Source of the DNA: a virus
Reading direction: 5' to 3' (one strand)
IMG/VR virus record: IMGVR_UViG_3300037882_003791
Span: 1-27,627 of that record
DNA: 27,627 bases
Under the pieces are notes generated by a model. The model was given only the letters and a program-made list of their open reading frames with translations, did no database searches and was not told where the DNA came from. Position numbers and translations under genes: made by a program. Each line of letters begins with the position of its first letter. The stretch's first letter is position 1. Positions 12,816 to 27,566 of the stretch are shown in pieces.

Positions 12816-13493
12816 GTGGCAAAAGAAAAACCAGTCGGGTTTTATCCTGCTACAGCCCATCGGATACTGAATCGATTGGGGATTGGCGCAGAAAGCGAAT
12901 TCATCGAGCGGCAGCGAGGTCGCGGACGTGGATCGACTATCAAGTATTTCGTGCTTGCTGAAGACGCAACGAGTTTGCCCGTCTACGCGTGGCCGGGTGA
13001 TTTCGACCAAGAGACAGGAGAAATAAATCCAAGGCCAGACTCGACGCCATTTGAGTTGTATTATGCTAATGACGAATTGCGGCCAGGAACAAAAACTGCA
13101 AAGGCCGGATACACAGGCAAATATGGCATTGATGAAAACGGCTTGGACATGTTCATCAACGGCCCTTGCGTGACTGGATGCACATCGACCGCAAGTATCA
13201 GCGGCACTTTAGAAGACGGTGAAGTTGGCACGGAATACGAAGCGACATTGACTGTGTCTGGTGCAGACGATGACGGCGTCACATCGCCTAATCTGCCTGC
13301 TGGCCTTGAGCTTGATCCAGACACTGGCGTTATTTCTGGCACGCCAACGGAGGCTGGAACGTTTTACATTGTCTTCACGGCAACTAGCGAAGATCCACCA
13401 ATCTGTGCGGCGACTGAAATGATTAAATTGATCATATGGCCCGAGGGCGAAGGTCCAGAACCAGAAGAGCCACCAGGAGGTGGAGAGCCGTGA
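12816..13493 (+). CDS. Tail-tip type protein with Ig-like He_PIG domain
   Basis: A 225-residue protein starting at GTG 12816 (AAGG about 10 bases upstream). Residues 1-110 are a unique domain (RQRGRGRGSTIKYFVLAEDA, VYAWPGDFDQETGEI). Residues about 128-210 form a bacterial Ig-like domain of the He_PIG type: the hallmark LPAGLELDPDTGVISGTPTE followed by AGTFYIVFTATS is clear. The C-terminus is a Pro/Glu/Gly-rich linker. Such domains on phage tail proteins contact the cell surface. The stop overlaps the GTG start of the next gene, and the strong AGGAGG site for that gene lies inside this one, so the two are translationally coupled. Confidence 0.7.
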   Translation: MAKEKPVGFYPATAHRILNRLGIGAESEFIERQRGRGRGSTIKYFVLAEDATSLPVYAWPGDFDQETGEINPRPDSTPFELYYANDELRPGTKTAKAGYTGKYGIDENGLDMFINGPCVTGCTSTASISGTLEDGEVGTEYEATLTVSGADDDGVTSPNLPAGLELDPDTGVISGTPTEAGTFYIVFTATSEDPPICAATEMIKLIIWPEGEGPEPEEPPGGGEP

Positions 13494-15031
13494 CCGGACA
13501 TATGCAAACCAATTGCGAAGGCAGTGATTGTTGTGGCAATAACATCGGCGATCCTCCCCCACGCTGTGATTGTTACGCAGGCGGCGATGTATGCAGTATC
13601 TGGTGGAAATGCAACGTCCCGGCCAGTATTTTCGGTCTGCCTAGCAAGCCGCCATACAGAATGCGAATCACCAAAGCAGACAATCGAGACGATGAGGACA
13701 TTGAAACGATTCTTGAATCTACTGAGGTCGAGGGTCGGTGGTCTGTGCCTGACAATACCGACGCTTACTTTCGTGTCCAGTTGTGTTGTGACGATCCAGG
13801 ATATGGTGAATGCCGCTGGCGTACTTTGTTTGAAGGCCAGATTGATTCAGTCACAACGCCATGCGATATTGCTGTGGTCGGCGTTGCTCTTATTTTAGAT
13901 GAAAATAATAATCCTAATCCGGCTGGTCCGTATCGATGCGGCGGGAAGCTTCGGGTCCACGGGGCCGGGGGGCAGACTATATTTGGATCGTGCGCTCCAG
14001 GCATAACTTCACTGAAGGTCGGTGGAGTTGTTGTTGGGGGCGGCTCTCCTTTTGTTGGCTGTGTGCCTGAAGGACTTGGCCCAAACTGTGCTGCTGGATC
14101 TGCATTACTTCCAGAATGCGACGGCATTGCTCCTGATCGTCGATACATTGACATTGAATTGCCTACTTCAAGCTGCAATCAAAAAGTCGCTGTCGAAGCA
14201 ACAAACGGATGCGGGCAAGTTCGTGTTTGCGAAGTGACTTTGCCATGTGAAGCCCATTACAATTATTACCGTGTTGAGGTTCCGACCTGGAACGGCCTTA
14301 ATCGCACTTGTAGTGGCGCAGAAGATCAACCGCCGGGATGGCCAAATCCAACCAATAGCGATTTCACGTGGGCTCAGTCCTGGTCGAATGCCGTGTCGTT
14401 GACTGGCAGTGTCGGAGGGTCTTATTTTGTCGCAAAGCATTTGAACTGTCCGAATCACAATCCGATTGCGACAGGCACGTTTGATTGGCGTTGGATCGTT
14501 AGTGGCCTGCATCGAAAGTACGACTCGGCGACGGGCGGGCTTATAACTCTCCCAATGAACTACGATTTACACTGGTGGGGCAACATAAAGTATTCTCTCG
14601 GGTTCAGACCAGACGCACAGTTATCCCTCGGCGATGTGATTGTTTCATTTGACGGCCCGTTGTTCTATCACGTTGAACAGCAAGGACCGGGGCAGTTCGG
14701 CAACGAGCAAGTGATTTCTGATGGCCAATATCCCGGCCCTCAACAGTCAGTCAATTTTCAACGCCTTTTTCGTATCATTGGAATGTCTAATCCGATGACC
14801 TGCTCACCATGTGACGACCAACAATTAACGACCCAAATCACATGGGAGAAAATAACGCCTTGGGATTGGTCGATTCAATTAACTCCGGGTATTGGGCAAC
14901 CTCCACAATGGCTGATTCCTGATTATCAAGTTGGTGGAGGCTGGACAGGGCCGTATCCGGTTCCGTTTAGTTGCGTTGGCAACGCAACCGTGCAAACCGA
15001 GGTTCTTGAAGCGGAGTTGATCAGTTTATGA
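13490..15031 (+). CDS. Large Cys-rich putative tail/host-interaction protein
   Basis: I place the start at GTG 13490: AGGAGG lies about 10 bases upstream and GTGA overlaps the previous stop. A start at 13436 is possible by frame but would add an Arg-rich leader and has no such site. The 513-residue product has about 25 cysteines, many in close pairs (NCEGSDCC, CDCYAGGDVC, LCCDD, CSPCDD), plus many Gly, Pro, Trp and Tyr, as in extracellular disulfide-bonded proteins. No signal peptide is seen, which fits a virion part. No family is recognised. With the preceding Ig-like gene and the following gene (overlap ATGA) it forms a three-gene coupled unit, probably for receptor recognition. Confidence 0.65.
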   Translation: MTGHMQTNCEGSDCCGNNIGDPPPRCDCYAGGDVCSIWWKCNVPASIFGLPSKPPYRMRITKADNRDDEDIETILESTEVEGRWSVPDNTDAYFRVQLCCDDPGYGECRWRTLFEGQIDSVTTPCDIAVVGVALILDENNNPNPAGPYRCGGKLRVHGAGGQTIFGSCAPGITSLKVGGVVVGGGSPFVGCVPEGLGPNCAAGSALLPECDGIAPDRRYIDIELPTSSCNQKVAVEATNGCGQVRVCEVTLPCEAHYNYYRVEVPTWNGLNRTCSGAEDQPPGWPNPTNSDFTWAQSWSNAVSLTGSVGGSYFVAKHLNCPNHNPIATGTFDWRWIVSGLHRKYDSATGGLITLPMNYDLHWWGNIKYSLGFRPDAQLSLGDVIVSFDGPLFYHVEQQGPGQFGNEQVISDGQYPGPQQSVNFQRLFRIIGMSNPMTCSPCDDQQLTTQITWEKITPWDWSIQLTPGIGQPPQWLIPDYQVGGGWTGPYPVPFSCVGNATVQTEVLEAELISL

Positions 15032-16137
15032 AAACTTGGAAGCATCCGATTCATTGGCCGCCCGGTAAAGGTCCTGCGGATGTCAAGAGTACTGGAGAGT
15101 CGCCAGATGCACAAAAGTGCGACGAGTTGTCTGCTGGCATCAATCTCCTGACATCACTTAGCTTGATGCCAAAGCACATGGAAGTCCAGAGTCGATGCCT
15201 TGATTCTTGGGTGACAGTTGGGTGTAAAGTGATTGCACAAAATACTGCCGAGGAAATCAATCAGCTAAAGCCTATTTACCATCAAGTGCATGAGTGGATT
15301 GAGTGTGATGATACAAGCACAGCGTATGAGTACCCAACGCAGAAGTTGATTAGTCTCGCAGAAAGCGCGGCTGCTCTGGATGCTGCGATTATCAATAGTG
15401 ATATTGAAATTATTTGTAGGCAAAAACAACTTAAATCGCTGATTGAGCGATCAGAAAGTGAATTTGTCCTAGGCATTCGTTGGAACTATTCAGTCTCCCC
15501 AAGCCATGCAAGAGAGTTTGAGTGGGGGTTTGATCTGATAGCTATGAGCCCTGAGCAGGTTGGTCTCTTGCCAAAGGACATGCCGTTTGCCATCGGTCAA
15601 CCGATGTGGGACTATGCGCTACCAGAGATATTGATGATGTTTGGATTCAAGCCGAAGATATCACATTCAAGAGTGCTATTTCACCATGACCATCCTCAGC
15701 ATTGGAACGATAGAAGTCACAGGTTAGGAAAAAATTGGTTAGCGAATTTCACTGGCCAGCCGTTTGATGACGTTTGGTTTAGGCGGTCCATTGACAGTGA
15801 GTACCTGTATTACAAATCTGATGGCGTTTACCGTCGCAACCATTGGATGCCGTTGCATTGGTACGCACCGTTGAATCGCAAGGTTTGGGGGCCCCAAGAA
15901 GCACGCCAGTGGTTCTTCGAAGGTTGGCAGCCGGGTATTCCTGAATCATGTGGTTGTAGCGAAAAATGGGCATCGTTACCAACGCCAAGCAAAGATATCT
16001 TCGATACCCCACAGTCGTTTTTTCGATGGGGGTGGGATCGTCACAACCATGTAAGCCGATATCACGCAAGTAAGCCAGTTATGTCGTTCCACGATGCAGT
16101 TTCGTGGTTTTGGCCGTCGCATGCCATGCCTGGTTGA
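15028..16137 (+). CDS. Glycosyltransferase-like protein with ERV/ALR-like C-terminal motif
   Basis: A 369-residue protein coupled to the previous gene by ATGA. Residues about 35-260 resemble a GT-A-like family seen in phages and bacteria: an early surface motif (INLLTSLSLM... SRCLDSWVTVGCKVIAQNT), a DxD-like position in INSDIEI (Asp125), HAREFEWGFDLIAMS and FAIGQPMWDYALPE. Residues about 290-365 resemble a small domain related to ERV/ALR thiol oxidases: ARQWFFEGWQPGIPESCGCS, then FFRWGWDRHNHV ending SKPVMSFHDA, with the HN motif and a CGC pair in place of CxxC. I recall this pairing in phage proteins but cannot confirm it here. Donor, acceptor and redox activity are unknown. It might modify a virion or surface glycan. 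Confidence 0.5.
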   Translation: MKTWKHPIHWPPGKGPADVKSTGESPDAQKCDELSAGINLLTSLSLMPKHMEVQSRCLDSWVTVGCKVIAQNTAEEINQLKPIYHQVHEWIECDDTSTAYEYPTQKLISLAESAAALDAAIINSDIEIICRQKQLKSLIERSESEFVLGIRWNYSVSPSHAREFEWGFDLIAMSPEQVGLLPKDMPFAIGQPMWDYALPEILMMFGFKPKISHSRVLFHHDHPQHWNDRSHRLGKNWLANFTGQPFDDVWFRRSIDSEYLYYKSDGVYRRNHWMPLHWYAPLNRKVWGPQEARQWFFEGWQPGIPESCGCSEKWASLPTPSKDIFDTPQSFFRWGWDRHNHVSRYHASKPVMSFHDAVSWFWPSHAMPG

Positions 16138-20444: not shown

Positions 20445-21632
20445 ATGATGCGAGTTAGTTGTGATCGATTGAAGTTATCTGAAGCGTTTTCCGTAGTGAG
20501 TTCGCTGGCAACGAAGGGTAGCAGTCGCGAAGCTTTGCAGTGTGTAAAGTTGGATGTTCGAGCTGGTTCGGTGACGTTGAGTGCTACGAACTTTGACACG
20601 AGCATTCGTCTGGAGCTAGACGGTGCCGAGCCGCTGGAGAGCACGCCGCTGAAGGCCGCAGACGGGGCGGCTCTTTTGCATGTCGGCCGGGTTGGTCAGA
20701 TCATTCGCGAGACGCCTGACGATCGATTGAAGTTTGAGTTGGCGAATAAACCTGGCGAGGATGGTGATTTCCTTCGCATTTCCAGTTTGAATAGCGAATT
20801 CAAATTGCCTGTGATTGATCCTAAGGAGTTCCCTGCAGTAAAGGCTTGGGAAGAGACGGATTACCTTGAGTTGCCTGTGCGATGGCTTCGCGAGGCGATT
20901 CGACGGACGGCTTTTGCGACCGATCCTAATTCGACTCGATTCGCGTTAGGTGGCGTGCGGTTGGAGATGACCGACGAGTGTAGCCTTACGTTGATTGCGA
21001 CCGATGGGCGTCGACTGGCTAAAGTGAATGGTTCGGCGACAAAGGTAGGTAATCCCGGTGTGCATGGGATTGTCGCGGCGATTGTTCCTACTCCTGCCAT
21101 GGTCTTGGTGTCTAAGACGTTGGGTGATAGTGATGCGGCGGTCAAGCTTGCGATCCACGGTAATGATGTGGTGTTTTTTGTCGGCGGGGTGACGGTCACG
21201 ACTCGGCAAGTCGAAGGCAGGTATCCCAATTGGCGCAGCGTTTTGCCGACTCGCGATAATCCAAGCAAGATTTCTTTGAATGTTGGGTCCGCGCATAACG
21301 TGATTCGTCAGGCCGCGATTGTGGCCGACAGTGAGTCCCGCGGGTTGGACTTCGAGCTCACAAGCGGCAGTTTGCTGTTGTCCGCATCGACGGCGGACCT
21401 CGGTAGGAGTCATGTCGAGTTGCCAATTGCTTACGAGGGCCAGCCGATTCACATGAAGATGGATTATCGGTTTGTCTGTGATTTCTTGAAGGCCTTGGAT
21501 GCGACTGATTCATTCACGTTGGACGTTGTTTCTTCGACTGCTTCGGCTTTGCTGACTACCGACGATGGTTATTCGTATGTCGTGATGCCAATGGCGCTGG
21601 ATCGTCCAATTAAACCTGCTGCTGCGAAATAG
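20445..21632 (+). CDS. dnaN: DNA polymerase III beta sliding clamp (phage-encoded)
   Basis: A 395-residue clamp. The three-domain pattern is intact: domain 1 (DRLKLSEAFSVVSSLATKGS and SVTLSATNFDTSIRLEL), domain 2 with FALGGVRLEM and the signature ATDGRRLAKV (Asp187-Gly188-Arg189-Arg190), domain 3 with VTVTTRQVEGRYPNW (Glu257-Tyr260) and the C-terminal YSYVVMPMAL that lies near the partner-binding pocket. It encircles DNA and tethers polymerases or ligases. Length is close to the usual 366-380. Two adjacent ATGs (20445, 20448) are possible; AAGG is just upstream. It starts the tight operon that runs to the integrase. No polymerase gene is seen, so it probably works with host replication proteins. 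Confidence 0.9.
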   Translation: MMRVSCDRLKLSEAFSVVSSLATKGSSREALQCVKLDVRAGSVTLSATNFDTSIRLELDGAEPLESTPLKAADGAALLHVGRVGQIIRETPDDRLKFELANKPGEDGDFLRISSLNSEFKLPVIDPKEFPAVKAWEETDYLELPVRWLREAIRRTAFATDPNSTRFALGGVRLEMTDECSLTLIATDGRRLAKVNGSATKVGNPGVHGIVAAIVPTPAMVLVSKTLGDSDAAVKLAIHGNDVVFFVGGVTVTTRQVEGRYPNWRSVLPTRDNPSKISLNVGSAHNVIRQAAIVADSESRGLDFELTSGSLLLSASTADLGRSHVELPIAYEGQPIHMKMDYRFVCDFLKALDATDSFTLDVVSSTASALLTTDDGYSYVVMPMALDRPIKPAAAK

Positions 21633-25890: not shown

Positions 25891-26178
25891 TTGTCAACAA
25901 TTCAACTGACTGCAGTTGAGCTGGAAGAGCTTCTGAATAAAGTAGCTACCGAAACAGCGGAGCGTGTCGTTGCTCATCTTTTGAAGACAGACGATAGGCT
26001 GCTGGATGTCTACGAGGCCTCGAAAGTACTTGGATGTAGCGTTTCAACTGTCGAGCGTTGGACCAGGGAACGAAAGGTGCCCAGTCACAAGATTGGGAAG
26101 TTGAGGAGGTACAGGCATTCTGAATTGCTCGCCATCGATAAGCAGATCTTCGAACAAACACCTATTGAAAGCACTTAA
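25891..26178 (+). CDS. Excisionase-type helix-turn-helix protein
   Basis: A 95-residue protein starting at TTG 25891, chosen because AAGGAG lies 7 bases upstream and the preceding stop is adjacent. The N-terminus is a long helix (VELEELLNKVATETAERVVA). Residues about 38-85 are a MerR-like HTH_17 (LLDVYEASKVLGCSVSTVER with WTRERKVPSHKIGKLRRYRH), as in excisionases (PF12728). It is directly followed by the integrase, so it probably acts as recombination directionality factor or as regulator of the integrase. It could also be a simple transcription regulator. The TTG start may keep levels low. Confidence 0.8.
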   Translation: MSTIQLTAVELEELLNKVATETAERVVAHLLKTDDRLLDVYEASKVLGCSVSTVERWTRERKVPSHKIGKLRRYRHSELLAIDKQIFEQTPIEST

Positions 26179-26180
26179 TT

Positions 26181-27566
26181 ATGGTCAGCGTTATTCGTCG
26201 CAAGCAGGGCGGTCGGAACGGATGGCGAATTCGATTTGTCTTTCGGGGACGTAGGCTTGAGGTCTACTTGGCTGGCGTCAGAAAATCGGTCGCAGAGACT
26301 GCTGGCCGACACATCGCGGATCTCGCAAAAGCCAAAGAAAAGAATCTGGCTGCTGATCTAACGGACGTCGCCTGGGCAGAGGGCACCATTGGAAGCCTGC
26401 GTGAGCGATTAGCCGATTTTGGTTTAGTTTCACGTCTGAAATCAGCCTCAAATGAGTGCAAAAGCACTCTCGATACCTTTGTGCAGGCCTACATCGATGG
26501 AAGAACGGATGTGAAGGCAACTACGCGTACGAACTACGGGCAGACTAAAAGGCTGCTGGTTGAGTATTTTGGCGTTACGAAGTCGATCGAGTCGATCACC
26601 GCAGCCGACGGTGATCGTTGGCGATGCTGGATGCTAGAAAAGAAGCTGGCAGCTTCCAGCGTTAGCAAGCACGTCAAGCGCGCGAGAACAATCTTCGATC
26701 ATGCAATGAAGGATCGCTTGGTCAGCGGCAATTCGTTTAAGGAGGTTCGAGCCGGGGCCGAGACAAATCCTGCACGGCAGGCCTACATCGATGCTGTCGA
26801 TGCTCAGAAGATCATGGATAACTGCCCTGATGCTGATTGGCGAGTGATTTTCTCGCTCGCAAGGTGGGGCGGACTGCGATGCCCCAGCGAGATACTGACT
26901 CTTAAATGGGACGACATCAATTGGGATCAAGGAAAGATTCGCATTGACGCGCCTAAGACTGGCTTGCGATTTTGCCCACTCTTCCCCGAACTGCGCGCCG
27001 TTCTCGAAGAGGCGTTCGAACTCGCTGACGAAGGATCTGTTCGGTGCGTGACACGATACTCTCCCCAGCAAAAAAATCTGAGGACACAACTTGAGCGTAT
27101 CATCCAGAAAGCCGGACTAACGCCGTGGCCGAAGCTCTTCAACAACCTCAGAGCCAGCCGGAGAACTGAACTTCAGGAGATATACCCAAGCCACGTCGTC
27201 GACGCCTGGCTCGGCCACTCGACCAAAGTTGCCGAGGCACACTATTTGCAGGTCACTCCTGAGCACTGGGATCGTGCTTCCGGGTACCACACCGGGTACC
27301 ACACTTCTACCCGCCAACAGCCAGCGACTGGCCATCGCGAAACGAAAAAACCCCAACAAAACACAAGTTTCGCTGGGGTTGGATGGTTGCTTCACAACGG
27401 TGAAGTGACCCCTATGGGGGCTGAACTACTTGCGATTCTACAGTCTTCTTGGAGTGAATTTTGCCAGGGTACCACCATGGGTACCACACCGGATTCCGTT
27501 ACCAATGGGCTACTAGCATTTATTGAGTCGGAATTCGATCGAGCTTCGGCGCTGCCTTCAGGCTAA
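26181..27566 (+). CDS. int: Tyrosine recombinase integrase
   Basis: A 461-residue phage integrase. The N-terminus (GWRIRFVFRGRRLEVYLAG) resembles an arm-binding domain; residues about 95-195 are the SAM-like core-binding domain (TLDTFVQAYIDGRTDVKATT). The catalytic set is Arg233 (GGLRCPSE), Lys259 (APKTG), Arg324 in NNLRASRR (the preceding His of HxxR is Asn321), His346 (WLGHS) and nucleophile Tyr355 (AHYLQV). A tail of about 95 residues after the catalytic core carries DNA-level repeats and a minus-strand terminator. It starts two bases after the HTH gene. The window ends 61 bases later, so the attachment site is probably here or close by. Confidence 0.92.
   Translation: MVSVIRRKQGGRNGWRIRFVFRGRRLEVYLAGVRKSVAETAGRHIADLAKAKEKNLAADLTDVAWAEGTIGSLRERLADFGLVSRLKSASNECKSTLDTFVQAYIDGRTDVKATTRTNYGQTKRLLVEYFGVTKSIESITAADGDRWRCWMLEKKLAASSVSKHVKRARTIFDHAMKDRLVSGNSFKEVRAGAETNPARQAYIDAVDAQKIMDNCPDADWRVIFSLARWGGLRCPSEILTLKWDDINWDQGKIRIDAPKTGLRFCPLFPELRAVLEEAFELADEGSVRCVTRYSPQQKNLRTQLERIIQKAGLTPWPKLFNNLRASRRTELQEIYPSHVVDAWLGHSTKVAEAHYLQVTPEHWDRASGYHTGYHTSTRQQPATGHRETKKPQQNTSFAGVGWLLHNGEVTPMGAELLAILQSSWSEFCQGTTMGTTPDSVTNGLLAFIESEFDRASALPSG
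27282..27302 (+). repeat. Paired GGGTACCAC motif, left pair
   Basis: GGGTACCAC at 27282 and 27294 (12-bp spacing), with the palindrome GGTACC. Read as G-Y-H-T in the integrase frame. Confidence 0.7.
27345..27380 (-). terminator. Minus-strand rho-independent terminator inside integrase gene
   Basis: On the minus strand the stem CCCCAGCGAAAC / GTTTTGTTGGGG has 12 bp with two G-T pairs and a TTGT loop, then T6. On the + strand the same stem has A-C mismatches and no T-tract. It would stop transcription entering from the right. Confidence 0.75.
27467..27487 (+). repeat. Paired GGGTACCAC motif, right pair
   Basis: GGGTACCAC at 27467 and 27479, again 12 bp apart, 185 bp from the left pair but read in another frame (G-T-T), so conserved at DNA level. 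Confidence 0.7.

Follow-up and report, generated by a model that had tools for sequence, protein, structure and literature searches.

In phage lambda, attP is located outside int. The myxobacterial phage Mx8 carries attP inside int, and a review of myxophages describes how integration yields a new int 3' end, the product of which is still an active enzyme with changed specificity (PMC6070905). The Islander paper counts the integrases of Mx8 and SSV among those that reach across attP (PMC4383910). In the archaeal suicidal (SSV-type) integrases, as reviewed in PMC8371274, attP also lies within int and the gene is changed by integration, being split so that the catalytic part is parted from the N-terminal part; the same review describes self-disrupting integrases as restricted to archaea. 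As for the sites themselves, according to a survey of tyrosine recombinases an N-terminal arm-binding domain recognises arm sites located close to where recombination takes place (PMC8138268), and a mycobacteriophage paper reports an attP core flanked by pairs of putative arm sites (PMC10865867).

We analyzed the whole of IMG/VR virus record IMGVR_UViG_3300037882_003791, 27,627 bases in length and referred to below as the window. Its genes include those for a capsid protein, a tape measure, a terminase small subunit, a sliding clamp, two methyltransferases, an excisionase-like HTH protein and an integrase; no tRNA gene was found throughout the window. The clamp is a phage-encoded full-length DNA polymerase III beta clamp (20445-21632), near the genes for the terminase small subunit and two DNA methyltransferases. 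Two long open reading frames, 13436-15031 (531 aa) and 15028-16137 (369 aa), lie near the tail genes and have no PHROG match, and the first has no Pfam match as well. The tyrosine integrase gene, int, is a plus-strand open reading frame of 461 aa at 26181-27566 (Pfam Phage_integrase, E 2.3e-9; relatives down to E 9.7e-131). Directly 5' of it, at 25891-26178 on the plus strand, an HTH protein that is a probable excisionase (RDF) matches Pfam HTH_17 (E 1e-10) and PHROG 66 (excisionase and transcriptional regulator, E 1.2e-7). The PF00589 catalytic tyrosine recombinase domain was detected in 30/30 members of the integrase family, and R228, K259, R324 and Y355 are invariant. The HxxR box (residues 321-324) reads NNLR, with N322 nearly invariant among 30 relatives, and in the next box GNS replaces GHS in many related integrases. 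The N-terminal domain (26181-26390, plus strand) is modeled as three strands and a helix with a pLDDT of 88.3. Its top VIA match is 3rmp_C, which concerns attP recognition by a P4-like integrase (Z 4.9, rmsd 1.6 over 51), a weak match with non-integrases scoring close behind. Together with the covariation with arm sequence reported below, the model points to this domain as the likely arm-binding domain.

The 9-bp repeat GGGTACCAC occurs at 27282-27290, 27294-27302, 27467-27475 and 27479-27487, always on the plus strand, with no further copy on either strand of the whole window. Its chance expectation is 0.04, and four copies were seen in 0/100 shuffles. The start-to-start distance is 12 bp inside each pair and 185 bp from pair to pair, and the frames of the two pairs differ, since the first is translated as GYHTGYHT and the second as GTTMGTT. 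Between the pairs, at 27402-27419 within the int open reading frame, lies the putative attachment core GAAGTGACCCCTATGGGG on the minus strand. Its 18 nt are identical to a stretch in genome G495 that takes in the 3' end of a planctomycete tRNA-Glu(UUC) gene and 3 nt of its flank, and the core stands at the offset expected from the relatives; the exact core pattern was present in 1/296 genomes searched. The tRNA-Glu genes of the closest relatives (L047 and L077) match the window at 13/16 positions, starting at 27405, and 2000 mononucleotide shuffles of the window tail gave a best tRNA-Glu match of 13 and a mean of 9.6. The P pair (GGGTACCAC-ACC-GGGTACCAC, 27282-27302, plus strand), the core and the P' pair (GGGTACCAC-CAT-GGGTACCAC, 27467-27487, plus strand, 47 nt beyond the core) are contiguous in the window, with candidate arm pairs on both sides of the core, and because of this contiguity we read the window as an unintegrated attP. 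The region 27282-27487 is, with high confidence in this prediction, attP, located at the 3' end of int, with the two pairs as its arm-type sites P and P'. Two N-terminal domains of the integrase, spaced by 12 bp, would probably bind each pair, and the integrase would cut and rejoin at the core, a copy of the 3' end of the host tRNA-Glu gene. We infer the host, attB and crossover of the window phage, because no integrated copy of it was found.

A first-pass annotation of this DNA had described the four motifs as two equally spaced pairs read in different frames and had proposed them as candidate arm sites for integrase or excisionase. The exact positions agree with that description, and the integrase part of the proposal is supported by relatives, in which putative P and P' pairs occupy the same positions and the arm sequence tracks the N-terminal domain. 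The annotation had held that a core mapped far away, together with a lack of protein binding, would count against arm sites; the putative core lies between the two pairs.

Mx8 (AF396866) has its elements in the order of the window: a tandem pair comes first, then a minus-strand hairpin that has an A-run, next a core resembling a tRNA and, last, additional repeats. Similarly, its excisionase gene uoi lies just 5' of int, as the HTH protein gene does in the window. The Mx8 (L280) hairpin with its A-run, between the tandem repeats and the tRNA-like core, is unmentioned in those parts of the literature that were consulted. On the other hand, the two integrases are barely related (BLASTP E 0.42; 14.5 bits on the A1 profile), the pair period is 11 in Mx8 and 12 in the window, the Mx8 host phylum differs from that of the planctomycete family described below, and the Mx8 tail lacks the conserved peptide of that family (-0.3 on the conserved-tail profile), and we assign the window to the Mx8 kind by working mode and not by proven descent. 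With the SSV-type integrases the window shares the predicted placing of attP within int and an expected change of the gene by integration; in the window, however, the catalytic domain would stay whole and the tail alone would change. With its core beginning 156 nt past the codon for the catalytic Tyr355, which ends at 27245, the window integrase is predicted not to be a suicidal integrase of the SSV type. Mx8 Int and this planctomycete family are milder, tail-only bacterial versions of the self-disrupting integrases. Lambda Int has N-terminal, core-binding and catalytic domains like the window integrase, and its arm sites flank the core on both sides; comparison of full-length lambda Int with the window integrase gave Z 18.5 and rmsd 16.3 over 315.

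A single-protein IMG/VR search with the window integrase found no relatives, and a search of phage records returned just one weak match, Burkholderia KS5. Related integrases were found in 30/294 Planctomycetota genomes at E ≤ 1e-20 and in 121/296 genomes of one planctomycete order at E ≤ 1e-60. Among 59 relative loci examined, 53 have an antisense tRNA gene beginning 151-259 nt past the catalytic Tyr codon. These tRNAs are of many isotypes, and the closest relatives (~50% identity) are mostly in tRNA-Glu. The int frame is open from the Tyr codon to inside the tRNA in 51/53 loci, as against 5 and 7 for the other plus frames and 10-16 for the minus frames; it is thus kept open across this stretch although putative DNA sites lie there. 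In the window, too, the int reading frame crosses the entire attP. The arrangement with attP inside int, known from one myxobacterial phage, therefore seems to be common in Planctomycetes, judging by these sequences. Literature searches found no planctomycete integrases with attP inside int, which is not proof of absence. We do not consider the arrangement universal: distant relatives with short tails carry paired repeats 3' of the int stop codon.

The relatives have tandem pairs of other sequences, located between the Tyr codon and the tRNA at the position of the window's P pair and often with the same 12-bp period. On the int side, with 8/9 matches, a lag of 12 was found in 38/73 regions, a lag of 23 in 14 and a lag of 10 in 10. 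In four loci (L083, L066, L087 and L096) the int-side arms hold at least 3 repeat copies or two pairs ~23 bp apart. To place the element borders, up to ~40 kb before int was taken for 50 elements and a far-side copy of the tRNA end was sought. A far-side core repeat of 14-30 bp was found in 26/50. The other 24 have no core repeat of at least 14 bp: 10 have no antisense tRNA, 12 have no repeat, and two, excluded before the set of 26 was formed, have one of 13 bp. Beyond the core repeat a lag-12 pair with 8/9 matches or better was found in 17/26 elements and every other lag in at most 1/26, and these P' pairs mostly start 41-59 nt beyond the core. The far P' matches the P of its own element at 16.2/21 positions and that of other elements at 12.1/21 (0/10,000 permutations as high), the element's own P pair being the top-ranked match of P' in 13/26. 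Across 31 proteins, arm sequence correlated with the N-terminal domain (Mantel r 0.63, p 2e-4), also after control for the catalytic domain (partial 0.57), but hardly with the catalytic domain after control for the N-terminus (0.12, p 0.10).

Between the window's pairs lies a predicted intrinsic terminator on the minus strand (27341-27380), with a stem running from 27380 to 27349, in which 14 pairs were counted, and a T-rich tail at about 27341-27350. The minus-strand fold has -28.1 kcal/mol (z -5.3, none as good in 200 shuffles) and the plus strand z -1.7, so that the strong opposite-strand terminator noted at first pass is real and strong on the minus strand only. That annotation had further suggested a host gene on the minus strand just beyond the junction, and this is supported: the relatives have the tRNA there, with the terminator oriented along its transcription. 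After integration the tRNA gene would adjoin int on the opposite strand and be transcribed toward the phage-borne hairpin, which would take over from the displaced host terminator in ending the tRNA transcript and would stop antisense transcription into int, shielding it. We consider this double role likely. It is also conceivable, though we hold it improbable, that the terminator serves phage transcription alone and is unconnected with the host tRNA, in keeping with a free phage that has no tRNA. Against this, terminators scoring at least 16 between the arms and the tRNA were oriented toward the tRNA, on the minus strand, in 27/54 regions and on the plus strand in 3/54, the window included. 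At this score the shuffle control had a mean of 5.85 and a maximum of 9 (20 shuffles). The cut-off of 16 was our choice, and without it the counts are 37 and 6 of 54. Moreover, several elements have a similar hairpin before the far core copy, the expected position of the original tRNA terminator.

The first-pass annotation had also taken the window end for a prophage junction, and here we differ, since arms and core stand together as in an uncut attP. If the window were instead attL or attR, at one end of a prophage, its true core would lie outside, both pairs would be on one arm and the host would begin past 27566. The contig does stop 61 bp past the int stop codon, and some relatives have more than one int-side pair. 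Nevertheless we judge this very unlikely, because the pairs enclose a tRNA-Glu 3' end at the core offset of the relatives, the window lacks a tRNA gene and the P' spacing matches that of the relatives.

The exact GGGTACCAC pair, an 18-base pattern with three free bases in the middle, was found at 40 unrelated loci in public genomes. At 11/40 (L006, L018, L020, L021, L022, L027, L032, L034, L037, L039 and L044; Aeromonas, Pseudomonas, Edwardsiella, Lachnospiraceae and others) it adjoins a tRNA gene, 47-67 bp beyond the tRNA 3' end on the same strand, with no open reading frame of 100 codons spanning it, and at one further locus it lies 254 bp beyond. The window geometry agrees with these loci because its second pair begins 47 nt beyond the core. 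On the int side, a minus-strand open reading frame spans the pair in L008, L010, L019 and L040; the first three match an integrase pattern and L040 is integrase-like by profile. That the repeats were instead selected at the protein level, as GYHT and GTTM repeats of the integrase tail, is scarcely credible, even with some exact matches elsewhere falling in threonine-rich coding repeats, given that the two pairs are in different frames, that P' pairs stand apart from int in integrated elements and that an identical DNA pair adjoins tRNA genes at the 11 loci just named. Many of the remaining loci were not counted as att sites, being inside reading frames such as the threonine-rich repeats. The motif in L012 was also set aside, as it lies within overlapping reading frames and is probably there by chance; the L012 genome holds an integrase relative at E 5.8e-71, and it was via L012 that the planctomycete branch was reached. 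The tRNA-gene islands of other bacteria share the GGGTACCAC pair, though their integrases, where seen, are distant.

On this reading the two puzzling repeats of the window become parts of one complete attP. Integration would exchange the integrase C-terminal end for a peptide translated from the antisense strand of the tRNA gene; in the window, as expected from the relatives, the segment 27420-27566 (plus strand) is the int end in attP form that would be cut off. When the attP form was joined in silico, the int frame was open at least 35 codons beyond the core in 22/26 relatives, as against 11 and 8 for the other frames, and the integrated tail differed from the joined-attP tail in 26/26. After 5/26 elements without a usable segment past P' had been dropped, the post-P' tails proved to share a peptide, with a consensus around ELxxLxxxWxxLxxxxRxxI; the true tail exceeded all frame and shuffle controls in 19/21 (leave-one-out). 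Among uncut attP forms in IMG/VR, 8/14 long tails without a tRNA score 15-25 bits on the conserved-tail profile, two of the eight being duplicates and six independent. Because these uncut forms match the profile, the peptide is confirmed independently of in-silico joining. The window tail past the core scored -1.5 bits (best shuffle 0.8), and no match was found in its other frames. Integration is thus predicted to remove, in relatives, a conserved tail peptide that the window lacks. We offer only tentatively the idea that the Planctomycetota Int exists in two forms set by the state of the DNA, the tail peptide favoring integration or blocking excision. The free element would then make Int with the conserved peptide and the integrated element Int with a tail read from antisense tRNA, integration itself would throw the direction switch, and the tail of the window integrase would have diverged from that of other members.

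The attP reading yields a rule by which attP, attB and the borders of elements can be located in Planctomycetota, a phylum in which integrases that end in peptides from antisense tRNA are common. Because arm sequence varies with the N-terminal domain in a large number of natural pairs, the arm-recognition code might be read from them, and a conserved peptide encoded by the unintegrated gene alone opens many systems to tests of the directionality question that Mx8 raised. Finally, loci L105-L107 in genome G511 have an int-side-like terminator and a core copy before the far core, left of the element, which suggests two tandem elements at a single tRNA-Glu gene.
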